From positions 70,541,001 to 70,605,000 of the forward strand of contig CP142459.1 in NCBI GenBank assembly GCA_038049695.1: DNA of 64,000 nt, in the 5' to 3' direction. The notes under the pieces are model-generated. The model did no database searches. It saw only the letters and a program-made list of their open reading frames with translations, and was not told where the DNA came from. The stretch comes from Cinnamomum chago (lineage: Eukaryota; Streptophyta; Magnoliopsida; Laurales; Lauraceae). Shown piece after piece: positions 6,721 to 32,464 of this stretch. Numbering within the stretch: the first letter of the stretch is position 1; every line of letters begins with the position of its first letter. The translations under genes were made by a program, and so were the position numbers.

Positions 6721-7545
6721 GTTGGTTGGGGACCTTTTTTTGCTGTAAGGGTAAATTATATTGAAAAAGAAAGGAGAAAGGGGAAATAAGAATACAAAGG
6801 TCAAAGGATGACCCCCAAAATGAAATAGCAACAAGGAAATCAAAAAACACCTCAACCAATGAAAACAGAGCACTCCAGTCTCTCAGCTAGATAGGCTCTG
6901 GAGAGATTCTCAAGGAAACGAAGAGGGCGCTGAGGTGGAGACTGACAAAAGGAGAAGTCATCTGCTTGAGGGAGAAGGAGATGGCTTCAGTTAGATGAGC
7001 CTGGATGGAGTGGAGAGAGGGCCTGCAAGCATCGAAAATTGCTTTGTTCCGGGCCTTCCATAGGTGGTAAGTAACAGTGATGAATATGGCAGCCATGAAT
7101 TTGAAGCCATTGGCATCTGAGTCTTTGGAGAAGGACGACCACAGAGAGGAAGCAGAGAAGCTGGTAGGAGGAGGAGCCTCTGCCGCTTGGAGCAACCAGG
7201 ACCAAGTTGCTTTAGCTAGATCACAATTGAAGAAGAGGTGGCCCACGGAGTCTTCTGCAGCTCTACAAAGAATGCACCTGGAGGCAAGGGAAAAACCCAA
7301 CCGCTTCAGCCAAGAGTCTGAGGGAAGTCTGTTGTGCATCAGTCGCCAGCCAAAGCAATTAACTCTGAGGGGGGAGAGAGAGTTCCATATCAACTTTGGC
7401 CAAAGGAGAAGAGGAGCTCTGTGCCTGATTCTCTGCCACGCTGAGCTCAAGGAAAGCTTTCCATCTGGAGTGTCTCTCCAACTGAGGGAATCTCTGATGG
7501 CTGGGATCTGAATCCCTGATTCTCTGCCACGTTGGTTGGGGACCT
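6721..7545 (-). mobile_element. 5'-truncated L1-type LINE with target-site duplication
   Basis: A 15-bp direct repeat, GTTGGTTGGGGACCT, lies at 6721-6735 and 7531-7545 and encloses about 795 bp. On the minus strand the insert carries the end of a LINE ORF2 (7530 down to a stop at 6887), a ~145-bp 3' untranslated region, and an oligo-A of about seven bases abutting the duplication. The encoded peptide holds the zinc finger found at the C-end of plant L1 reverse transcriptases (zf-RVT): Cys-x2-Cys-x8-His-x4-Cys in CILCRAAEDSVGHLFFNC, preceded by FGWRLMHNRLPSDSWL. The endonuclease and catalytic reverse transcriptase are absent, so the copy is dead on arrival. The perfect duplication suggests a fairly young insertion. 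Confidence 0.92.
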
Positions 7546-7851
7546 CGTTTCTTATATTTCTACTTAAGGGACCTATCCATGGGTCATGTCCGTGTGGTGT
7601 AGTTTCTCTCACTTTTCTCAGTGGGGCCTTTGATGGGTCCCAATTAATCCCCTTGACTGCGTACCAAAGCAAGAAGAAAAAATGGTTTGGATCTTTACAA
7701 GGTGGGCTAAATTCACTTCACCTCATAAATAAGATTAACTTGATGCAATACTTTTCATACATACGTTTATGCGTATAATATCATCCAAAATTAGGCTTAG
7801 GTTCTTGCTCAAATTAGTTTGGGCAAATAAAAGGTCTATGATGGCTGGTAA

Positions 7852-12240: not shown

Positions 12241-12410
12241 TATCTTATAAAGAATGAAGATATGATCAAGCCCATTTAGAGCAGCACTGTCAAAATCCAA
12301 AATCAGCCCATAAAGAATGAAGATATGACCGGGTCATATCTTCATTCTTTACATATCTTCATTCTTTATGGGCTGATTCTGGATTTTGGGTCGTATCTTC
12401 ATTCTTTATA
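12241..12410. promoter_or_regulatory. inverted-repeat cluster in the F6'H-like promoter
   Basis: A 17-18 bp phrase, TAAAGAATGAAGATATGA, occurs twice forwards (about 12247-12264 and 12310-12327) and three times in reverse complement (about 12333-12350, 12353-12369, 12393-12410). The central pair forms a near-perfect hairpin whose outer part extends to CCAAAATCAGCCCA and its complement (12291-12330 against 12332-12388). The cluster ends about 15 bp before the TATA box and about 110 bp before the start codon. A protein-binding array or a structure-forming element is possible; function is inference. Confidence 0.7.
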
Positions 12411-12424
12411 CATCTCTCATTCCT

Positions 12425-12432
12425 TATATATA
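12425..12432 (+). promoter_or_regulatory. TATA box of the F6'H-like gene
   Basis: TATATATA lies 90 bp before the chosen start codon at 12523, a normal plant distance that allows a leader of about 60 nt. It is the last feature before the gene and directly follows the inverted-repeat cluster. Confidence 0.6.
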
Positions 12433-12522
12433 GATATTAATGAGAAGAACATACAAACTGCAAGCCGCCTATTGAGCTCTTCTCTAATTCCTAGCAATTG
12501 CAATAGACTATCCCATCCGATC

Positions 12523-15500
12523 ATGGGTGCCTCTACCAACTCACTTGAACTAAATCCAGGTCCTGTAGTCGACGAGTCTCATCTGTTCGATTTCGTTGTG
12601 AAGCAAGGCAATGGAGTGAAGGGGTTGGCCGACTCAGGGCTAATGAGTCTACCTCGTCGTTACGTCCACCCACCCGGCGAGCGGATCGACCCAAAACAGG
12701 TCATAGACGCATCTCCTTATCTGGGTGCGCCTATCGACCTGTCCATGTTAGAAGAGGAGAAGAACAAGGAGAAGGTGATGAGGGAGCTGTGTGGGGCTGC
12801 AGAGAAGCTGGGTTTCTTTCATGTGGTGAACCATGGAGTGTCATTGGAGGTGCTTGAACGTGTGAAGGAGGCAGTTCATGGCTTCTTCAATCTGCCACCT
12901 GAGAAGAAGGCTGGGTATTTGAAAGGAAGGACTCCATGTCCAAATGTTTTTTATGGGACCAGCTTTTCTCCCGAGAATGAGGAATCGCTTGAGTGGAAGG
13001 ACTATCTGAGCCTCAGATATATGAATGATGATGAAGCCATGCAGTTCTGGCCTCTTGAGTGCCGGTTTGTCCTACTTTGACTACCTTCTTCTACATCATC
13101 ATCATCTTCTTCTTCTAGTTGTTGTTGATGTTATTATTGTCAGGGGAGTTGACATATCAATCCCTCCAAAGTCTCCAATTTCATGACTCAAACGTCACCC
13201 AGAGTCATTTGACTCATGGTACAATTTTTTATTTTTATTTTTTTTTGAAAGCTTGTACATTAAAAAACTTAGAAAGTCTTCTTATTTAGACCTAGATCAG
13301 ATGATATCATGAGTTTTTAAACACTCGTAATATCATGGGATTCAGGACAGATAAGCAAAAAAAGAAAAATAGACCAGAGTCAAACAACTCTGGCGACATT
13401 AATATGTCTTTAGTCATGAAATTGAGAGAATATGATTTAAGGGGAATTAATATGTCAAATCTCCTCATTATTATTATTATATGAATACAAATAGTTGCTA
13501 GCTGCGTTTGGAGGGTTCTGCTAAGTGATTCTTGAATTGGGGTTGGTAATCAATGGCGGTCCCAAGTTTTTTATTGGAGGGCAGTAGACCCAAATAAGTA
13601 GTTGGATATTGTGGACAAACTCAAGATTTCCATATGAATTCTGGGGGCGGATCTAAAATTTTCATTTGAGGCAGGCCCAAAATTTTCATTTGAGTTGTGG
13701 CTTTTTGGGGGGGGGGGGCGGGGGGAGGGGGCGCCGTATGCCTGATGCTCTCTATTCAATTTCAAGGTCTCACCCAAGTATGCGGTAAAAAGCTTGTACA
13801 CTATAAAATCATATAACAAGTGTCATCATCGGGGGATAACAAGTGTCATCATCGGGGGGGCAGGGGCAGTATGCCTGATGCTCTCTATTCAATTTCAAGG
13901 TCTCACCCAAGTATGCGGTAAAAAGCTTGTACACTATAAAATCATATAACAAGTGTCATCATCAGAACTAGTATCCGTCGCTATCCTTATAGGATCTGAC
14001 ACATTTGCATCATTATCTTGGAACCGGATCCCCTGTTTGGACACCCCTGTTTGGTCCAAATAGGGGATCCAAACAGGGGCCTCCACATGGGGGGCGGAGG
14101 GAAGAAAAAGTTAGATTCTCTTTCCTCCGCCCCCCCGCCCCCCATGTGGAGACCCGTGTTTGGACCAAACAGGGGATCCTTATCCCATTATCTTGATTAT
14201 TCTTGGGGCTCATCAGTTTTAAGTTTGTGGAACGCTTGTATGCATGACCAATATTTTGTTGAAATATTCTTTTGGTTTTTGGGTCGTCGTCTTCTCCCAT
14301 TACACGGCCAAGGGACTCATGTAGGGATGTAAATGGATACCTGATTATCTGAGGGTTTCAACCTATTAAAAACAAGGTCGGATCCTTATTTAGGCTTCAA
14401 TAAGTAAATGAGTTTGGGTCCGGTTCTACCTTGATTCGGACCCGTGGACTCAGGACCCGACATATTATCTCAATTTTTTAAAATCTCTCATAAAAATCAT
14501 ATTTTTTAAATATCATTCTCTACCTAGACCGGGACCCAAATCTAGACCCATCTCATATATGGTTCTGGTTTTGATTCCAGAGTCAAGAAATCAATTTTGA
14601 AACGGTTCCGGGTTCGTATCCGGTTTCACCTTCTCCTTAACGGTTCCAGTTCCAAGTCCACCATTAATCCGATCCTAAACCGACCTGTTTACAACCCTAG
14701 AATTTTGGGTGAGAAGCGATGCCCAGAGCCACTTGGGCTTCAAACCCTTCTTCCCTGAGCCTGGCTTAGACAACACATATCTGTGAGAGACAGGTCCATT
14801 GGATTAAGTCCTAGTAGATACTGCTGATCATCCCATTTGATTAGAATCGGCGAATTTGAAATGTATAACCCAATTTTTCAAAAAAAAAATCTCAAAACCT
14901 ATGTATGAAAAAAGGGTGTGCAAATAACAGAATAGGGACACAAAGGTGAGTTAATCGGGTGCCTATCCCACCTGTTATTGTTGCGCTCATGTTAGGTATC
15001 TATATAGAGTTTGAATCAGGTCGGGTTGAGATAGGTTCGAGTTTTGGTTGCCCGGACCTATCTAGTATGTGACTCGGGCTGTAGCTCAGATGATGAGGTC
15101 GGGTGTTGACTCAACGCTAGCTTGACCAAATTTTGAACTGGCACAAATGAAACCCGATCATACCGGACCCGAAATATGCCCTGCCCAAGTTCATGATGGG
15201 TTAATCCAACGGGGCTCTTGCCAGATAGAGTACCCAAGTTTTTTCCCCAATTCTGAAAGGGTATATGTAGGAAGCATATCTACTTAGAACATAAACTATG
15301 TATTATACACATATTATATTAAATATGGAGGCCTTATCAGGGGCATGACTCATTCACTGGGCATGAGTGCATACCTGTATATGGGGCACGCTTGGGGTTG
15401 GGACCTCAGGGGATTTGAAGATCACCCTGTACCCCTTATCTCTGGAAAAAATCAGTCCCAACCGATCACCGTATCATCTTCGATCATCCTTATGCTATTA

Positions 15501-20720: not shown

Positions 20721-21171
20721 AAGATGCATTAGATTTATGAAAAAGAAACTGGATCTCTTCCATCGTGGGACCCCATTGAGCCCTTGGGTGAGGTAAGAGA
20801 ACCCTCCGGTGAGGTAAAGAGCCTCGAGTGAGGAAATGTGACATACGTTGAGAGGTGAGAATTGAGACATTTTACAGTAGGGTAAGGTGCCCTTCGCATT
20901 CAGGGCATATTGGTTTATCATAAAGACGTTTAAAAAGGGCCCAACATTTAGATATCTCTAAAAAATAATATACGTATATTGGACATTCCTAACTTCTTGA
21001 TTCAATGCCATGAAAATGTACATGAAATCAAACAATTATACACTTGAATCGGGTAGGCCCAATGACTGGCACCACAAATTATCATGTCTTCTTTACGAAC
21101 ATTGAAATAAAGAAAATAAATTCTACTAACAGAGTCAAGTGAATTAAAATTAATTTTAAAGAAAGAATAAA

Positions 21172-21308
21172 GAGGAATTTACCAAATAAATCCCTGTAGG
21201 TCCCTATACCACTCATGGGGTCCCAAAAAAATAGTATTATTGGATTAGGTCCTCAAGGGCTGTATTTGTATTTTTTTTAGTATTTTGGCTCTATGGCCGA
21301 TATCGGCC
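21172..21308. repeat. left terminal inverted repeat of the MULE
   Basis: It starts GAGGAATTTACCAAATAAAT. The first 54 bp are identical to the complement of the right end; overall there are about eight substitutions and one indel over the ~137 bp. It ends in the palindrome GGCCGATATCGGCC (21295-21308), and a second copy follows at 21339-21352. Terminal repeats of this superfamily usually carry the transposase-binding site and the promoter, which fits the PMD-C48 start about 210 bp further in. Confidence 0.93.
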
Positions 21309-21520
21309 ATTGTATTTTTTTTTGTAATTTGGCTATATGGCCGATATCGGCCATTGACAGTTACCCCACTCACGCGCGCTGTGGCCCCTTTTTCATTTCG
21401 TTCGACCCTCACTCCCCCCATTCCCTTTCGTTTCTCTCTGTCAACAGTCTCCCCCCTTTCCAGTGGTCCCAAGCAGGTGGTCCCAAGCACTTTGGCGCCA
21501 AATTTTCGAAGGTGGCTGGC

Positions 21521-24500
21521 ATGGAGGTACGTTTCTTCCTCATTTCAACCATTTTTCTTTGTGCCTTGGATTTTGAATGAAGACGTGTTGTTCTAGGGTT
21601 TGGTTTGATGGCTGTTATTCTCTACTTCTTCTCCTCATCTTCCCATCTTCTTCTCATCTTCATTACCCATTGTGCAGACGTGATTTCTAGATTTCCAACT
21701 TTCAATTTGACATATTGAATTGTATATGGCCGATATCGGCTATATTTTATAAATCTCCCCCAACTGAGGCAGTTTATGAATAGCATCTTCCCTGTTGATG
21801 CGCGTGACCTGTAGAATAATGGAGTTGTCATGGAATCTATCGTGACGCACAAATCGATTATTAAAGACCATTTTTGAGTTCCAGAAAGATATAAGCATCA
21901 AGTAAAATGATTAAAAGCTTACAATTATGAACAAATATGAAGTAAGAGTCACAATCAGTTTGAATGCTTTAAGCACTATAATTGTTATTGTTCCATAAGG
22001 TCTGGAGCAGTGTAACATACCTTCTAAAGGATGTTCTCATTGGTGATGTTACATTGGTGATTATACCATTAGGTCTGGAGCAGGAATGAGAACATCCTCT
22101 GGTGATGTTTACCTCTGGTAAACAAACTTCTAAAGGATGTTCTCATTCTTGGTGTCAGCTGTGACGGTTGTTATGCTAGTAAGCTTAGTATTGAATAATA
22201 TCATGAGTAATTCATTCTACTGATTGATACACAACAAAAAACCATGATGTTAACTGGCAAATGGCCACTCCTAAAAACGGTTCTAAATTTGATTTGTCAA
22301 AAGTAAGCCCACCTATATAAGGAATTCTACTGATTGGTAAGTAGGCTACTCGAGATGTCAAAGGGCCAGACTAGGCCGGGGGGCCATGGTTGTCCAATCC
22401 CTACTCTCAATATATGTAGGTGTCGGGCTCAAGGTGGCCCAAAGCACTTGGAGGTCCTGCACAATTTAGGCAAGTATTTACTATGCAAGAGAAAGTATTT
22501 GATAGTATTGGTGAACCTTATTTTTGAACTCACCAATTTAGACTTTGATAGATAGCATTGCATTAGATTCTTATAAAGCTAAATTCTGAACAAACGAGTG
22601 AATCATATATATTATAAAAAGACAAAAACGTCTCTTAATTTGTTCTACAGCATGCTATTGAGACTATGTAGCTCGCTATTTCTAGGTTGTGGCCCATCCA
22701 AGAGAAGGCCGAGAAGGCTAGGCAGGGTGGTAAAGGCTTGCAAAAATCTAGTGCGAATCCGACCTTGGGATCATACGAAAAAGAAAAGCTCTCACTTTAC
22801 GGTCTTTTTAAAAGCCAAGTCCAGTTGGACACCCTCATGGGGGAGGCCCAATTGGTACCCCCACATTCATAACAGAAGAACCATCCCAAAAATATGGTTT
22901 TGGATCATTAAGGGCCATGACTTAGCATCCAAATCAACAATCATTAATGCCCAATTGAGCTTGAAGGTTTTCTCCCTTTTGCTCATCCACTAGAAAATTT
23001 TGGAGAGTACTAATTGACAAGAGAACAGTGAATGTGATGGGCCAGGTGGGTGCTAAAGGGTGTGTTGTTTCCAATTAAAACCTTCCATGATTGGAAAGTT
23101 TGCTTGTTCTGAATTGGAATCACCAAAAGAGCGAGGAAAAAAAAAGTATCTATGTTTAAAATATAGAGAGGAGCATGTGGGGGGTGGGGGAAGAAAACAA
23201 AATCCAGGAGGCCATGTCCATTAGGAGGGGGGAGGGAGTGTGTGGTGGTGGGGGGGGTGTGGAAAGAGAAATCGGAGGAAAAATGGGATTCGTTTTTCCT
23301 TGGTATTTTATTTATAGTGGTTGGGTTTTTGAAAGCCTCCGTCAAAATTTGTAAGACTCATCAGTCATCTCCCTCTCTCTTTCTCTCTCTTCATGGCTTG
23401 TAAATAGAAGACAAAGCGATGTATGAGCTTTTTTTAAATGATAATTGGTCGCGGAAACTACTGTATTCCACAGGTTTATGTGATACAATTTTTGTGACTG
23501 TCTTCCACTTTTGTTTGGTTGTTTATTTTAGTGTTCTTTTACTTATTCTGTCTTAGTATAAGGATTTAGGACTTCATCAATGTACATGATCAGTGTCCTA
23601 TTTAGAGTCTCACATGGTAGATGGTGGAATCTTGAATAGAGTTTGATATTCTTTTGTAGGAACGTGAAGGACAAGCCCCCAAGTCTCCGAATGTTCTACT
23701 ATACAACCAATGCCTTCATGTGTCGGAGGGAATTCGGCAAGGAGAGGTATATTGTATTACACGATATCAATTACACATTTCAAAGTATCGATGCAAATTG
23801 TTATTTGATATATTCGTTTTGTACTTGCTAACCACATTTGGTAATTGTTACGTTGCTAGGATTTTGGGCGGCTTAGATGCATACCAACCAATCCGGACCG
23901 AAACATATGGCAGCTAACAAAACAACAAAAGGCATACGTGAGGCAGACGGGCCTCCATTACTTAGCAGAAATCGATCGCATGGTCATTGATCACGCGCTA
24001 ATAACCGGTCTAGTCGAAAGGTGGCGCCCGGAGACAAATACTTTCCACTTTCCGTCGGGTGAAGCAACTGTCACCTTGGAAGATGTTGCATACATCTACG
24101 GCCTACCCGTAGATGGCCCACCTGTGGCCGGACGAACTTTCCCGGGGAAGTTCGTCGCGTCGGTGTGCGAGGAGGTTCTTGGCATCCGACCGGATAAGCG
24201 TGACTACCATGGTATAACGTGAAGTTCAAGTGGCTTGAAGACAATTTTGCAGCTGCCGAACTTGAGAAAAAAAAGAAACATAAAAAATACAAGGATTACG
24301 AGATCCGGGCAACGCGAGCCTATCTCTTCTTTCTAGTGTCCGGTCAGATCGTTTCGCAGACTACTGGTGCCCGTGGACCGGCCTACATACTAGAGCTGTT
24401 CAAAGAATTTAAACCGTATGCATGGGCACCGGCTTGTCTCGCGAATCTATATAGGATGTTGACCAATGCCTCTCGATGGGGTCCGGAGAAGTTAGTTGCT

Positions 24501-27032
24501 GTGGAAGAGGGGAAAGATAAGCAAGGTGAGCTTGAAGGGCACCTGTGCAGGACGCCAACCGGGCCTCTACAGCTATTACAGGTCTTTATTCTCATAGTGA
24601 CTGTTAGTTTGAATTTTTTATTTAATTCGAACTAACTCTTTATTGTGATGTAATCTGGTGCAGATATGGGCTTATACAAGGATGTCAATCGGAAGGTGTC
24701 CTAAGCCAAAAGAATCGTGGAAGGGGGACATACAATTCCCACTGTGCAAGACATGGATGAAGAGGTTGCCTAAAAATCCACCACTCACCTCAGTCAAGGA
24801 GGTGAGAGGACAGTTAAACAATTTGAAAGTTGACGAGGTAAAACAAGAAATTGACTCGCTCCTTAGTTCGGTGTTCGATTATATGCATTCTATTTTGCTG
24901 AGATACTGGACTAACTGTTTCGTTGCTGATGTGTATTGCAGTTCATATGGCAACCATATGAAGGGTTTAGATCAAAGTTTTTTTCAAAAGTATCTAAAGT
25001 AGATCGCACTCTCCTACATTCGTCCACTGTTTTGATATGGTATTGGATTGTCGAGCGCCACAACACTTGGCGTGTTATGAAACAATTCGGGCTCAAACAA
25101 ATAGTCCCACCGCCTTTTACAATGCCCATCTTAAGACGAGAAAGGACATTCAGGTCTGTTGTCGATTATGCGGCAACGATGGATAAGGATGTCGTGTCGA
25201 CGTGGGGAGCAAGAGCCACTCTTGGACTTCAAGGTGAGGCTTGTGCTGCAGCTGCGCAGTCCGAAGAGTACATGGAATGGTATACGAAGAATACGTTGAT
25301 GTTTATTGGTAGAGGAGAGGCAACGGAGCAGCCTGCGTCCGATGTCCCTGCATCTGATGTCCCCACGGCTGAGCCCACCATCCCACAGAAGCATGTATAT
25401 CAATTACACCCTATAATGGACTGTTAGACTAGTTCCTTGATTTCTTTTTTCAAACTGTCGCTAATTCAATTACTTCTTTGATCAACAGGCTCAAGACATG
25501 GTCGCACGCATCGAACGGAGCCTCGAACGTTCTGCACGCAGGAAAACGCCAATCGACAAGCTATCCATGTCAATTTCGAAAAAGCTAGCTAAGTTTAAGT
25601 CGGGTTTTGGGACGAATTGGGAGAACTTCTCATTCGATGGATGCAACAGCTCGGCGTCTGATAATGACGCCACGGAGAAGAAAATGTTGATCACATTTAA
25701 GCATACCAAGAGGCCTGCGCAAAAAAGCCCGGCTAAAAAGACTAAATCTGCTAAAAGAAAATCCACGGTCGAGGAACCGAACCTCGTGAACATAAATGCC
25801 GAGGGATCAGGTAGCAGCAGGGAACATCCCATGACTGAGCCAGCACCCTTAACTATTGTTCAGACCCCACCAGTCAGCAGGAATTTGTTTGCATCCCCAT
25901 TTACAGTCTCCAGTGAATCTGCTATGGTGGTTACAGCGCCATTGGCCACCCTTGAGTCATTGGTATGGAGGATCAAACGGTTGCCCCGAATGCGCAAGAT
26001 ACCGTTGAAGTTTGAAGACTACACGCATGATATCGTTCGGAGCGACTATGTGCTGTCTGAACCCGACAAATTCTTCCTCAAAGGTTTTCTAGAATACTAC
26101 GATGACAGGTATGTTGGTTTAGTGTTGATCATGTTAATTTGTTTGATTGAAGTGCTTACGTGTGTTTGGACATATTCACTGTTACAGGAAAGATGAGCTT
26201 GGTGATGTTTGCACATTGATCAAGGCAGATGATTTGAAGAATGTCCTTGATGAGGGAACTTGGATGGACACTAACATCATTTATTATTACTTTGAGATAT
26301 TGAGAATTGGGTGTGATTCATGCTTCATTGCCGACCCAAGTGTCTGTGTAAGTACAAACTAAACAATGGTTGGGTAAATCCTTTATTATATGTATATTGG
26401 AACATTGTACCCACATTGATCAATTCAATGTATTCAGAGTTGGTGGCGCGATAGTGGTGACACAGCCGTCGAGGCAGTCTTTGGGAAGTACGGGCACAGG
26501 GTGTTGGACGCGAGGGAAGCGCGAACGCTGATATTCATTGTCTATCAGAGGTCACATTTCACATTATTGGTCGGACTGGTTGATGAGAAGAGATGGGAGT
26601 TTTACAATAGCATGGAGGGCGATCGCCGATCATTTAAACATGCGCAGAAGTTTGTAAGTTTTTCTTCCTTCATGCCAATAGTCAGTTTATCTCGAACGCG
26701 TATTTCAAATTCTTCTGTCCATTGCTGACATTTAGACCCGATGTTTTATGTAGATGGGATGGTTGGCCGAATGGTATAGCCATTTTGGGTGGAGCGACCC
26801 ATTTCTATGGCCACTAGTTGAAAAGACGGACATCCCTCGACAGAACAATACGAGTGATTGTGGAGTATTTGCAATGGCCTTTGCCACTCACTGTGTCCAC
26901 CGGCTTCCCATCGCCTTTACGCAATCAGACATGCGTTACTTTCGAAGCAAAATAGTCGTGGAAATCTTCAAGCGGAGTTGGCAATTGAACGCTAATAGAC
27001 TGGGCTTGACCCACTTGGCATCACTCCCATGA
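21521..27032 (+). CDS. transposon-borne PMD-C48 (Ulp1-like protease) fusion, one frameshift
   Basis: Nine exons: 21521-21526, 23660-23746, 23860-24581, 24664-24837, 24942-25394, 25489-26108, 26188-26347, 26438-26653 and 26754-27032, all GT-AG and in phase, about 905 residues. Residues ~40-390 form a plant mobile domain, as found in MAIN/MAIL1 and in transposons: MVIDHALITGLVERWRPET, VTLEDVAYIYGLPVDG, IWAYTRMSIGR, FIWQPYEG. A Lys/Ser-rich linker follows (about 482-600). The C-end is a C48 (Ulp1/SENP-like) peptidase: His781 in RSHFTLLVGL, Gln843 and Cys849 in PRQNNTSDCGVF. The usual Asp is Asn798 (FYNSM). One apparent 1-base deletion near 24212-24219 shifts the frame between YHGI and VKFKWLEDNF, so this copy is probably non-functional without correction. 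Role unknown; a helper in transposition or in modifying SUMO-like targets is speculation. Confidence 0.85.
23178..23262 (+). other. G-rich tract with G-quadruplex potential
   Basis: Within intron 1 of the PMD-C48 gene the plus (coding) strand carries several runs of three or more G, including GGGGGGTGGGGG, AGGAGGGGGGAGGGAG and GGTGGGGGGGGTG. Spacing allows a four-run G-quadruplex in DNA or pre-mRNA. No effect is known; this is a structural prediction only. Confidence 0.55.
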
Positions 27033-27387
27033 AGAATACGATCAGCCGGGAACTTTGAAAGTGGATTAACCTGCATGTTATCAAATGTGAATCACTTCAT
27101 AACTCAGATTGTATAGAAAGATTGGTGGTTGTGGTGTTCATGATGATTTGTATAGAATTTGACATTCAAAATGTTCTAAATGGGTTGTATTTAGACAGGC
27201 TGTATAGAATTTTCATTTGTATAGAATTTCATGGTTGTCTGTGTTTCTTGATGTCGATTAGTTGAAAACTCACTGACTACAGCCTGTGTTTCTTGATGTT
27301 CAAAATGTTCTAAATTTTCTTGATGTTTCTTGATGTTCAAGATTTGTACAGGCTTCTCTGTGTTTCTTGATCTTTCTTCCAAACTCA

Positions 27388-28350
27388 GCTTCCCTTAACT
27401 GAGGCTATAAAAAAAAGGACATGTACAGAATGGCCGATATCGGTCACAATATAGACCGATATCGGCCAAAATATCAGTCTCAGGCACCCTTAACTGAGAG
27501 TATGAAAAAACAGGACCTGCAGACAATGGCCGATATCGGTCAATATTATGACCGATATCGGCCAAAATATCAGTCTCAGGCACCCTTAACTGAGAGTATG
27601 AAAAAACAGGACCTGCAGACAATGGCCGATATCGGTCATAATATCGACCGATATCGGCCAAAATATCAGTCTCAGGCACCCTTAACTGAGACTATGAAAA
27701 AACAGGACCTGCAGACAATGGCCGATATCGGTCAATATTATGACCGATATCGGCCAAAATATCAGTCTCAGGCACCCTTAACTGAGAGTATGAAAAAACA
27801 GGACCTGCAGACAATGGCCGATATCGGTCATAATATCGACCGATATCGGCCAAAATATCAGTCTCAACCACCCTTAACTGAGAGTATGAAAAAACAGGAC
27901 TGCACAGAACGACCGATATCGGTCATAATATCGACCGATATCGGCCATTCTGTACATGTCTGTTTTTTTTATAGCCTCAGTTAAGGGAGTCTGAGTTTGG
28001 AATTATAGCCGATATCGGTCGATTTTACGACCGATATCGGCCATTCTATTAATAATGCATCACCTGTATTTTTACAGTCTCAGTTAAGGGTGCCTGAGTC
28101 TGGTTTTTTGGCCGATAGTGTTTCTGATAGGCTCAGTTCAGTGAGCCTGAGTTTGGAATTATGGCCGATATCGGCGATAGTTATACATGACCTGTTTTTT
28201 TCAGCCTCAGTTAAGGTACTGCTACTGTGGCGAACTCAATGGAGTCAGCTATAACGATCCTGTAGCCGATATCGGCCATAATTTCATACTCAGGCTCATT
28301 TGACTGAGACTATAAAAAACAGGTCATGTAGAGTAGAATGGCCGATATCC
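27388..28350. repeat. array of CCGATATCGG dyads between the convergent MULE genes
   Basis: Five or six direct units of 96 bp start at 27431, 27527, 27623, 27719, 27815 and about 27910. Each unit has two copies of the palindrome CCGATATCGG about 30 bp apart, then a small hairpin CTCAGGCACCCTTAACTGAG and an A-run. Further dyads at 28009, 28031, 28165 and 28266 make about 16 in all. The phrase CTATAAAAAAAAGGACATGT before the array (about 27404-27424) recurs in reverse after it at 27945-27985, so the block is partly a giant inverted repeat. It occupies the ~1.9 kb between the stop codons of the two genes. The same palindrome is found twice near each MULE end. It may bind the transposase, end both transcription units, or both. 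Confidence 0.9.
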
Positions 28351-28888
28351 TTGCTCTCCCTCAATGCATACTTGGTTTCCATAGAAAGATTGGAAATTTT
28401 TTTTTTTTTTTTTTTGTTAAAACTGTGGTTGTTACCTGAAAGATTTATGTAGGTGAGATTTGTGCTGAGGTAATTATCTTCCTGAGATCCAAGATGTCCA
28501 TTCATTATGTTCACTTGAAGAGGTTCAACAAGCAGATACAGATTCGATGTTCACATAAAGCGTGCACAATTAAAAAAGGATCACATATCATTTATGAAAA
28601 ACAGTAATACAAGACTCCCAAAATACACAATTACAGTCCACATTTGCATATATCTAGGCATCATCAATGGAAGTGTATGCATCATCAAAGTACTCGCCAC
28701 GCAGCTGCAGCACCTGTTGTTACAGGAACTGGGAGTGTCGTGGTATGCGTACTGTGATGAAATAAAAACTCCCTTGATTAATACATCCTAAGGACAGCTA
28801 TCTGTATACATCATTAAGGGTCTTCTTTAAAAAACTGCAACCAGAATACATGCCAAAATGAATATACATTCTATGCTGTTCTAATTCG

Positions 28889-31347
28889 TCAACTGAGCAC
28901 GGGAGGATTGCGACAACTTCCACGGTTGTGGCCTCTCCCCTTGCAATTTGAGCACGTTACTGCCCTTCGAACACGACCAATATCTTCAGTCCGAATCCTG
29001 TTCTTTTTCGGGCGTCCGGGCTGTTTACTGGACATTGGTGGAATAACTCTCAATTCGGCTGTGTGCTCCCATTGCTTGCTGTCACGGGTAGCATGAATCA
29101 CTTCACTGTACGTTGTACGATACGTGCTCGCAAAATACCAATGCTCACAGAATTCGTATGGATCGTAGTTTCTCATTTTCATTGCAGCGATAGCATGGCA
29201 ACACGGGATACCCAATATCTCCCATTTCCGACATGTGCAGGATTTCCGTTCGAGATCAACAACATCAACATACTCCGCAGACTGAACCTGAAATTCTACG
29301 ATGCCAGCCACACGAACATGCAATCGGCGAGCTTCATCCATTTCTTGACTGAGAACTTTCTCCGCATACGGGGTAAGACGAGTTGTTATGCTTTCAGACT
29401 GAAGATGCCGCTTTTGATAGAAGTCCATTAACTTTCCTCGTATCTCCTCAACTTGTTTCGTAATGGGCAGGACTCGCGTGTCTTTTAGGAGACTATTAGT
29501 GCACTCGGCTGCATTGCTAGTTAGCATGTCGTACCGACGGCCTTCTATGTATGCATTTGCCCACCGTTGCCGCCCAATTGCATCAATGTAATTGAAAGCC
29601 TCCTGGCTAACTGCACGGATATCTGTCATATAAGCCTCGTACTCGCATGGTCTGTATGACGTTGTTGCACGCCAAAATTTCATCACGATTGCCCCGTCAC
29701 TGAAAGCAGCTTTGATGTTCTCAGCAATGTGACGGCAGCAGTAACAGTGCATTGCATGCGGTATGGTGTTCTTTAACGCTGGAATGAGACCCTTCTGCCG
29801 GTCTGAAACAATAGTAAGGTTAGTTGGCTCTCCTAGAGATATGGACAAGTTCGCAAGGAACCACTCCCAGCTATCGCGCCGCTCGGCTTCAGCAAAGGCA
29901 AAGGCGATGGGAAGTAGCTTATGGTTGGCATCATGCGTCACGGCAACAAGCAACACACCTGGATACTTGCCTCGAAGGTGTGAACCGTCTACAGCAATCA
30001 CTGGTCTCAACGAAGACGTGTAAGATCTTATGCACGGTCCGAACGCCCAAAAAAATCTTCTGAAACGGTCATCCGAAGTAGTATCTATGTTTGTCACAGT
30101 GCCAGGGTTAGTCAACTCAAGTTCCTTACAATAACGGGGTAGCAGCTGGAAGGACTCTTCATATGATCCTCGCACAATACAAAGTGCCATCTCCTTTGCT
30201 ATATAAGCCTTTCTGTAACTAATTATTGAACCAAACTCCATCTGATAGTCATTCATGATCTCCTTCGGTTTCAAATTCACATTTTGCCTGACCCGTTCCA
30301 TGATGAACTCTCTAATAAGCGCTGAGGTTGCCTGTTGATGTGCCATGCCCATCAGTGGCTTTGAGCATCGATGGTTAGGATTGTACGTCCTAACTTTAAA
30401 TTGTGGTCCTGATTCGACAATCGAAGCATGAATACGCCATGGACAATCCTGATCTTTGCATCGTGCAGTCACTTTGGTCATGTTGGTCTTCAAATGTTTA
30501 AGAGTGAAGTTACCGTATATTGCAAACTTCGCCAACGTATTCCGGAACATCTGTCGATCAGGAAAAACACGGCTAATCCACATCTCTCGTGCGGAGTTGT
30601 TACCAAATTCCATTTCCATGTCATCAGGCTCCATTTTATCATCAAATTCAACTTTTGGAATTTCATTAGACCGTAGATCGGTATTGGTTTGATTGACTTC
30701 ATCCCTGCAACATTCGGCCTTGAAGATTGGTTTTGAATAAAGCTGTCCATTAGAGGGATGTCGGTTAAGATGGATATCATCAGCACGCATCATCCCAAGG
30801 TCGATATGACCATCTAACGCCTCATTGCATACATCATCATCATCCTGCACAGATGGATATTGCATGTCTGTGTCATCGCGGAGATCAGCGGTGGGTTGTT
30901 CTCGAGGACTTGTTGATAACTTCACTTGTTCCCTCTTCAAACTGGCTGACGACCTCCTTGGCATTTTTGGACTCTTAAATCCTACTGCGGTCCTTCGTAA
31001 CCTACAATGAATCGGGGCATAAATAAGCAAGTGCTAACATAAATAATTAATTTCGCATTTAAAATTTAGTGAGACAATTAGTAGGCATACCTGTCCTCTC
31101 CCCCTATACTTTCATTGTTGTTCGGACTATTAGAGACGTACAAATATATCCCATTCATTTCATTTCCGGATGCTTTGAACATAAGACGAACATCATTATC
31201 ATCGTCAATGCTTGCCATTGAGAATGCCCGTCCGTTGTGATGAAGGTATTGCATGCTTAAATTCTGGATGGCTGTATCCCAATTGGATGATTCCATTGCT
31301 TCGTTAGCCAGGCATTGATAAGAGATGTCTGACGATAAATATTTCAT
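28889..31347 (-). CDS. MULE transposase (MuDR family)
   Basis: Exons 31347-31091 and 31001-28889 join across an 89-bp GT-AG intron to give 789 residues. Order: an N-terminal MULE region (DVRLMFKASG, GIYLYV), a Mut-type zinc-containing DNA-binding domain at about 225-300 (FPDRQMFRNTLAKFAI, DCPWRIHA, NPNHRC), and the DDE catalytic core with Asp424 (VIAVDGSHLRG), Asp486 (IVSDRQKGL), the Cys508-x-Arg-His510 motif and Glu585 (SNAAECTNSLL). A SWIM zinc finger (Cys674, Cys676, Cys686, His688), a Lys-rich PGRPKK patch and a CCHC knuckle (Cys769, Cys772, His777, Cys782) complete it. All catalytic residues are present. In-frame coding sequence continues upstream to an ATG at 31438-31440 but is interrupted by TAA at 31351-31353, so the original N-end was about 31 residues longer. 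It acts in the nucleus on the terminal repeats. Confidence 0.95.
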
Positions 31348-31353
31348 TTTTTA

Positions 31354-32326
31354 TTTTCCTCCACTGTACACCGGACGGCTGATGTCAAATTGAAAGTCAC
31401 CGTCATAGTGGAATATGAACAACACCTCTCTGTCTGACATGCTATCATTAAATCACAGGAAAATTATGAAGATATCAGTAAAATGTAGGCAGATTCAGGA
31501 TGACAATTACAACAGATTGGTATTAGACTCATTTCATTTGTCCCTAGCTGCTATTCAAAAAATATTTAGACCGTATTCCACCTATTCTCCTATTGTTCAT
31601 CAATCAGCAAGACAACCAACTCCAATTGGATGAGATACTGGCGTTGAAGTATCCATGTTTGCAAGATCAATATAGAACAATATACAAACATACAAACTAG
31701 ACAATAACATTTATGGATTTACTGATGCACACTAAACATAAATAAAATGGAATGCACGACCCACCATAGCTCCAGCTGCTGGATTGAACAGAACCCTGAA
31801 AACGACTACACAGAATGTTTCAAAATGACGCTCTCTCAAACAGTTCTAGGGTATTCATGATGAGTGTGGATTTTCGACAGTTCTAGGGTTAACAAGAATG
31901 AAATAAAGGAGAATGGGTACTCGATTGATGAAAGTGGGTTTTTTACAAACCCTTCAAACAGAAAGTTCTTCTATAAGCATTAAAGAAAGCCTGGTTTAGA
32001 GACCGGGTACTCTAATGATGACAGAGGATTTTACAGAGATCTAGGGTTAACAAGAATGCATTAATGGAGATAAATCAATGTTACGATGTCACATTAGAGA
32101 AGATAGTGCATTAAGATGTGTGTTTAATGTACAAACCTACCTCTTAATGAAGTCCAACAACCGATTCACAGAAGTTTTTTTACATGGTTTCTGAAAGGGA
32201 AAAAATCGCCATACAACAGTCGAGGAGAGGAATAGGGATGTCGCATCAACGAGAGTTGTGAGCAAAACACAATCGGGACGAGAGAAATAGGGATGTCGCA
32301 TAACGGCCGATATCGGCCAATATTAC
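31354..32326 (-). other. leader region of the transposase gene
   Basis: On the minus strand this runs from the right terminal repeat to the transposase. Codons from 31440 to 31354 still read MSDREVLFIFHYDGDFQFD and onwards to SGGK, which looks like the lost transposase N-terminus. The remainder is non-coding and A/T-rich; it carries one inner copy of GGCCGATATCGGCC at 32305-32318. Confidence 0.6.
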
Positions 32327-32464
32327 GGCCGATATCGGCCATAGAGCCAAAACACAAAAAAAAAATATAAATACAGACCTTGAGGACCTAATCCGATAAT
32401 ACGGTTTTCTTGGGACCCCATGAGTGGTATAGGGACCTACAGGGATTTATTTGGTAAATTCCTC
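32327..32464. repeat. right terminal inverted repeat of the MULE
   Basis: Complement of the left repeat. It starts internally with GGCCGATATCGGCC (32327-32340), at the same distance from the end (~123 bp) as its left-hand partner, and finishes CAGGGATTTATTTGGTAAAT followed by TCCTC at the duplication. Confidence 0.93.

Follow-up and report, generated by a model that had tools for sequence, protein, structure and literature searches.

We describe a short palindromic motif that is confined, within the stretch of plant DNA analysed here, to a single transposable element, and we put forward a tentative interpretation of this motif as a docking address for a protein encoded by the element itself. 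The stretch (hereafter the window) comprises 64,000 nt of Cinnamomum chago (assembly GCA_038049695.1, contig CP142459.1, positions 70,541,001-70,605,000, forward strand) and contains one complete Mutator-like element (MULE) of 11,293 bp, at positions 21172-32464 of the window. The 10-bp palindrome CCGATATCGG, hereafter the core, is present in the window in 21 exact copies, all 21 of them inside the MULE, at both ends of the element and in an array between its two convergent genes. The reading that we favour, with a probability of roughly 0.4, is that the palindromes constitute an address for an element-encoded protein with an anti-silencing function, the likeliest reader being an accessory protein that combines a plant mobile domain (PMD) with an Ulp1-type protease end.

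Distribution of the palindromic core

The confinement of the core to the MULE is complete in the window, with 0/21 copies in the 52.7 kb that lie outside the element, and the exact count bears out a first-pass annotation of the same DNA, which had put it at about 21 copies, all within the MULE. That annotation had also expected such a 10-mer less than once in 64 kb by chance; 100 dinucleotide shuffles of the window indeed yielded none (mean 0.00, largest 0). No copy with one mismatch is present in the window (21 matches, all perfect), and every other 10-bp palindrome in it occurs at most three times, two TA-run 10-mers excepted. The cores are distributed as five outside the intergenic region (two at the left end, one in the left leader and two at the right end) and 16 in the interval that separates the convergent genes, and none of the 21 falls within the spans assigned to the two genes (23660-27032 and 28889-31350). 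The sites and the terminal inverted repeats (TIRs) of the element are as follows.

21172 to 21316, plus strand: left TIR, including the outermost palindrome
21297 to 21306, plus strand: outer left core, 125 bp from the left end
21341 to 21350, plus strand: inner left core, 44 bp further in and 169 bp from the end, belonging to a tandem duplication of 44 bp (93%)
21730 to 21739, plus strand: single core of the left leader, followed by AACTGAG (at 21762) as in an array unit
27377 to 28350: central array, with the convergent 3' ends of the genes on its two sides; units of about 96 bp in both orientations, holding 16 cores
32307 to 32316, plus strand: inner right core, 148 bp from the right end
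32319 to 32464, minus strand: right TIR
32329 to 32338, plus strand: outer right core, 22 bp from the inner right core and 126 bp from the end

The single core and the group of about 16 that the annotation described at 21729-21738 and between the genes were found at 21730 and 27434-28275, and its positions agree to within 1 bp. The core at 21730 may sit in an intron of the accessory gene. The terminal cores had been described as lying at matched distances from the two ends, a description that holds for the outer pair (125 and 126 bp) and fails for the inner one (169 and 148 bp). Since the outer cores lie within the TIR, their presence at both ends amounts to one observation, the match having been inherited with the TIR. 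The second core of the left end stems from the 44-bp tandem duplication, and the stretch at the right end resembles an array pair, its cores 22 bp apart; the two ends may thus have acquired their second core by different routes, which would hint that two sites per end are useful. Likewise, the claim that a single palindrome is shared by the ends and the array is correct for the 10-bp core and does not extend to its 14-bp form, GGCCGATATCGGCC, which is found at the four terminal sites only and in 0/16 array copies. A search of the literature for text matches to CCGATATCGG or the longer string gave 31 papers, and among the 20 of them covered by title no title is on plant MULEs.

Organization of the central array

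Among the 16 array cores, located at 27434-28275, 14 form seven pairs with a spacing of 22 bp, and those at 28165 and 28266 have no partner at that distance; two further sites, at 28112 (three mismatches) and 28342 (two mismatches), are decayed. The majority of the array sites are GGCCGATATCGGTC / GACCGATATCGGCC pairs with mirrored arms, so that each pair makes up a larger dyad. Alongside the array cores there is another repeated word, CCCTTAACTGAG, in both orientations; it may belong to the same address, AACTGAG being found also after the lone core at 21730.

Two further properties of the array were evaluated and discarded. A frame of 193 codons (27403-27984) runs through it by virtue of the 96-bp period, but is very probably not a gene: a frame stays open in 3321 of 5000 shuffled 96-mers as well, and gaps of 93, 94, 95 and 97 bp, which occur beside those of 96 bp in other clusters of the genome, would break it. 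A coding array was accordingly rejected. Helical phasing of all array sites is unsupported beyond the fixed 22-bp pair, with a mean resultant of 0.165 at 10.5 bp per turn and a maximum, the best of five periods tried, of 0.402 at 10.75 bp per turn.

Conservation of the core in diverging repeats

In the arms compared, the array units have diverged around the core and not within it. Four alignments of oppositely oriented array arms contain 20, 23, 31 and 31 mismatches, all of them outside the core columns, which make up 40 of the 133-135 columns compared (hypergeometric P of 4e-4, 1e-4, 2e-6 and 2e-6); the four comparisons have one arm in common and were found from exact seeds, a procedure that favours conserved stretches. 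Core mismatches are likewise absent from three shorter comparisons that include core columns, at levels that are not significant (P of 0.06, 0.15 and 0.28), and two others contain no whole core.

The observed/expected ratio of CpG is 0.35 in the array once the cores are removed and 0.37 in the rest of the intergenic region, 0.35 in the left leader and 0.58 in the right leader, 0.59 and 1.09 at the two ends with their cores included, 0.90 and 0.92 in the two genes, and 0.42 in the window outside the MULE. The cores were selected by exact match, and their intact CpGs are therefore given by the selection; what is telling amid the low CpG content is that not one core with a single change is present in the window.

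Genome-wide occurrence of core pairs

Two cores separated by 22 bp were found at 565 places in the 1.06 Gb genome, as opposed to one place for a reversed control; the pair pattern is self-complementary, and forward and reverse counts hence refer to the same places. The cluster figures that follow rest on 50 of the 565 places, every one of which is on contig C1. Together the 50 make up six clusters, in each of which 4.3-7.8 kb separate a lone pair from an array that numbers 6-9 pairs, so that both components are present in 6/6 clusters; 28 of the 38 gaps within these arrays measure 93-97 bp, corresponding to the period of about 96 bp. The first-pass annotation had asked whether the motif is common outside the family, and for pairs, in the 50 of 565 places covered, the answer is that 50/50 lie in clusters like that of the window MULE.

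Judging from the layout of their core pairs, the listed clusters are probably sister elements. The nine array spacers of cluster C1:20557200 include, in the same order, the seven of the window MULE, and the distance from the last array pair to the end pair is 4298 bp in the window MULE and 4294 bp in the cluster, which together point to changes in array copy number between sister copies, as in the targets of VANC. A scan of IMG/VR for the pair pattern returned 0 matches, a result that is uninformative for a plant element.

Boundaries and genes of the element

Identical copies of a 9-bp target site duplication (AAGAATAAA) flank the MULE, and its boundaries are formed by TIRs of about 145 bp whose outer 107 bp are matched at 94%. 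With these TIRs, the 9-bp duplication and the domain set of its transposase, the element has the makeup of a MuDR-type MULE. Its remaining features are listed below.

21163 to 21171: left target site duplication, AAGAATAAA
32465 to 32473: right target site duplication, AAGAATAAA
23660 to 27032, plus strand: predicted accessory gene of several exons, PMD (PF10536) followed by an Ulp1/C48 protease end (PF02902)
28889 to 31030, minus strand: main exon of the transposase, 714 codons from stop to stop, with DBD_Tnp_Mut, MULE and SWIM domains
31078 to 31350, minus strand: candidate upstream exon of the transposase, an open frame with no Pfam match above the cut-off

The Pfam matches of the transposase (PF10551 at 1.9e-18, PF03108 at 1.2e-13 and PF04434 at 6.7e-10) correspond to a MULE transposase with MuDR DNA-binding and SWIM domains. 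An AlphaFold model built from the single sequence reached a mean pLDDT of 32.9 and a pTM of 0.22 and was not used, and a sequence search of the PDB gave one match, with an E-value of 0.46, which we take to be due to chance.

On the strand opposite to the transposase, the PMD of the accessory gene is matched by four consecutive pieces (PF10536 at 6.3e-26, 1.1e-11, 0.00044 and 4.6e-13, the third at 20 bits and thus under the 34.9 cut-off). The predicted Ulp1/C48 end corresponds to a match of the last piece, at 1.6e-9, to positions 155-211 of 217 in PF02902; the only match of the preceding piece, to Peptidase_C57 at 0.05, is under the cut-off. PMD pieces one and two overlap in different frames near 24204-24222, which leaves no space for an ordinary intron, and the window copy may consequently be broken. 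A Pfam scan of the eight accessory pieces (23860-27029) revealed neither DUF1985 nor DUF287 up to an E-value of 0.1.

Direct repeats are present in both leaders of the MULE, as a 56-bp repeat in the right leader (31857-32070; spacing of 158 bp, 82% identical) and as short repeats of 38 and 34 bp in the left leader (21977-22155). Outside the element, a minus-strand frame of 276 codons at 6887-7717 has a likeness, by eye, to the end of a reverse transcriptase of a long interspersed nuclear element, and a plus-strand frame of 266 codons at 12280-13080 has one, also by eye, to an exon of a plant 2-oxoglutarate oxygenase.

A putative docking address

In the interpretation that we favour, the cores, most of them paired, would be sites for a sequence-specific, probably dimeric, element-encoded protein, and would occupy noncoding DNA at both ends of the MULE and between its convergent genes. 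Binding would protect the MULE from silencing by DNA methylation, along with any sister copies that bear this address, in the way that VANDAL elements are protected by VANC proteins, and the likeliest reader of the cores would be the PMD-Ulp1 accessory protein. We place this protein first and the transposase second because of three precedents: VANC21 binds YAGTATTAY, which is dense in the terminal, intronic and intergenic DNA of VANDAL21, and the element loses methylation (PMC5735166); some VANC proteins, which target motifs of noncoding DNA, are said to contain an Ulp1 domain (review PMC13317346); and the host PMD proteins MAIN and MAIL1 have been linked genetically to transposon silencing as well as to a promoter motif (PMC7156037, PMC9899485).

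Several observations weigh against this interpretation. The accessory pieces show a PMD and a C48 end and not the DUF1985/DUF287 reported for VANC in the accessible text of PMC5735166, where the VANC21 motifs are moreover described in one orientation, whereas the array units of the window MULE occur in both. The outermost cores are part of the TIR, the expected place for a transposase site, and PMC9899485 calls the contact of the MAIN/MAIL1 complex with chromatin unknown. The PMD frame appears to be interrupted once in the window copy of the accessory gene, near 24204-24222. The array cores at 28112 and 28342 are decayed and those at 28165 and 28266 partnerless, so that not every site has been kept, and the P values for core conservation are not independent, owing to the shared arm and to possible homogenisation by recombination.

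The proposal can be taken a step further, to a scenario that we regard as doubtful, in which MULEs with TIRs and a PMD-Ulp1 gene would have evolved a sequence-specific anti-silencing system of their own, independent of the DUF1985 type of VANC. A captured PMD related to MAIN/MAIL1 would read the palindrome, and the Ulp1 domain would act on silencing proteins located at the array, removing from them a SUMO-like mark; given that the palindrome contains two CpGs, binding by the PMD may in this scenario itself depend on methylation.

Alternative interpretations

The first-pass annotation had suggested that one DNA-binding protein, most simply the transposase, acts at the ends and the centre of the element. 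The confinement of the core, its exactness amid divergence and its clusters do fit a specific binder; the transposase would be one of two candidates for it, the other being the PMD-Ulp1 protein, and nothing in the analysis speaks for the pairing of ends or the counting of copies. Binding by the transposase, with the paired end cores as transpososome sites and the central array titrating the transposase or repressing the genes, is the most serious competitor, and we deem it possible, if somewhat unlikely. It would account for the location of the outermost core within the TIR, at distances from the two ends that match (125 and 126 bp), and for the two cores at each end, provided by a 44-bp duplication on the left and by an array-like 22-bp pair on the right, as if two were needed; the element encodes a MuDR-type DNA-binding domain, and accounts of maize describe a conserved MURA site in the TIRs of all mobile Mu elements and hypomethylation of TIRs caused by MURA, so that one protein could serve both roles. 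Against it speak the 16 of 21 cores that lie about 4-6 kb from any end and are unneeded for end recognition, as well as the recurrence of an array beside a lone pair in 6/6 listed clusters, and a literature search, which is no proof of absence, retrieved no MULE that carries transposase sites in an internal array.

The remaining explanations are improbable to varying degrees. Placed as it is between convergent 3' ends, the array might act as a transcription barrier, an RNA hairpin or protein roadblock that stops polymerases and averts double-stranded RNA from the two genes. As RNA, the array region folds at -495.6 kcal/mol, far beyond the -244.8 kcal/mol (standard deviation 8.5) of 20 shuffles, and two core pairs folded as DNA form stems of 15 and 14 bp; according to the literature, antisense RNA of MuDR arises by failure of termination between its two genes, and TNPA bound to the ends of Spm blocks polymerase. 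Such a barrier is nonetheless improbable, for it leaves the recurrence of the core at 21730 and at each end of the element unexplained, structure alone would permit compensating changes in the stems while the core is invariant in the compared arms, and a long hairpin might in fact feed small-RNA silencing. We give less credence again to a host transcription factor that binds the palindrome as an enhancer multiplied by the element: a palindromic 10-mer would suit a dimeric host factor, and the cores on the outer side of both genes would be suitably placed, yet no core is present in the 52.7 kb outside the MULE and 50/50 listed pairs lie in similar clusters, the latter a weak argument because pairs and not single cores were counted. 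Least probable, in our estimation, is the absence of any function, with tandem duplications spread by the transposon and a core kept alike by recombination between repeats. The variation in array length between copies (seven and nine pairs) and the two decayed array cores are in keeping with this explanation, and self-complementary repeats may well recombine; it is at odds with the occurrence of the core beyond the array, at both ends and at 21730, with the finding, in four comparisons that overlap, that the mismatches of a unit spare its core, and with the lack of one-mismatch cores in the window.

Significance

MULEs with an antisense PMD, the capture of Ulp1 and motif arrays are all already known kinds. 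A palindromic, paired address in a TIR-bearing MULE with a PMD-Ulp1 gene was not retrieved in a literature search, the coverage of which left out most subscription papers. PMD genes accompany the transposase in several groups of plant MULEs (PMC6446971), and the motif provides a way to ask about their role there, namely which protein of the element binds it and whether that protein demethylates array-bearing copies. Were PMD-Ulp1 to do so, anti-silencing by sequence address would no longer be limited to the VANC proteins known to date, and methylation editing could make use of the array as a target tag; were the transposase to do so, an internal array of transposase sites would represent an unusual form of MULE self-regulation.

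Comparison with known systems

The comparisons below draw on the parts of the cited sources that were accessible, and statements on what these sources do not mention are limited to those parts. MuDR of maize and its transposase MURA (PMC3440606) resemble the window MULE in having two convergent genes, a TIR with an expected transposase site and a MuDR-type transposase, but the second gene of MuDR is mudrB and not PMD-Ulp1, and a central array is unmentioned. The TNPA protein of En/Spm, a CACTA element (PMC2613891), is likewise an element-encoded DNA-binding protein acting on direct and inverted repeats, some of them capable of forming stem-loops, and it has also been linked to demethylation (PMC10398659); En/Spm belongs, however, to another superfamily, and its repeats are subterminal, with no mention of a central array.

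Closer in gene content are the MULE groups with a PMD (PMC6446971), where the PMD lies beside the transposase in group 45 (VANDAL, with PMD and/or DUF genes in half of the members) and in groups 46-50, and is antisense to the transposase sometimes in groups 47 and 48, often in group 49 and mostly in group 50. By its domain matches, the window MULE is both a PMD-bearing MULE, with the PMD in antisense, and an Ulp1-bearing one; unlike in the window MULE, a motif array is unmentioned for these groups, and Ulp1 has 0 matches in the paper. An Ulp1-type domain in the accessory gene is shared with the Ulp1-bearing VANC of KIU / Kaonashi MULEs (PMC13317346), for which motif-specific hypomethylation is reported in noncoding DNA, the compartment of the window cores; KIU / Kaonashi are described as non-TIR MULEs, whereas the window MULE has TIRs and a PMD.

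The closest functional parallel is VANDAL21 with VANC21 (PMC5735166, PMC10398659), a MULE in which a short motif is dense in noncoding DNA and forms tandem arrays with a copy number that differs between sister copies, and in which an accessory gene lies beside the transposase. The mark of a short motif that is dense in noncoding DNA and set in tandem repeats is present in the window MULE, with arrays in 6/6 listed clusters. The motif itself differs in being a 10-bp palindrome with two CpGs, organized mostly in 22-bp pairs and in units of both orientations, and the element differs in its TIR of about 145 bp and in an accessory gene with PMD and Ulp1, DUF1985/DUF287 not having been found, while anti-silencing is here only proposed. 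Two VANDAL/VANC marks are thus missing from the window MULE, namely an accessory protein with DUF1985/DUF287, in the pieces scanned, and a degenerate or absent TIR; the second is not a strict one, because members of the VANDAL group of the survey have TIRs of 46-174 bp together with PMD and/or DUF genes (PMC6446971). The window MULE may therefore function like a VANC system without being one.

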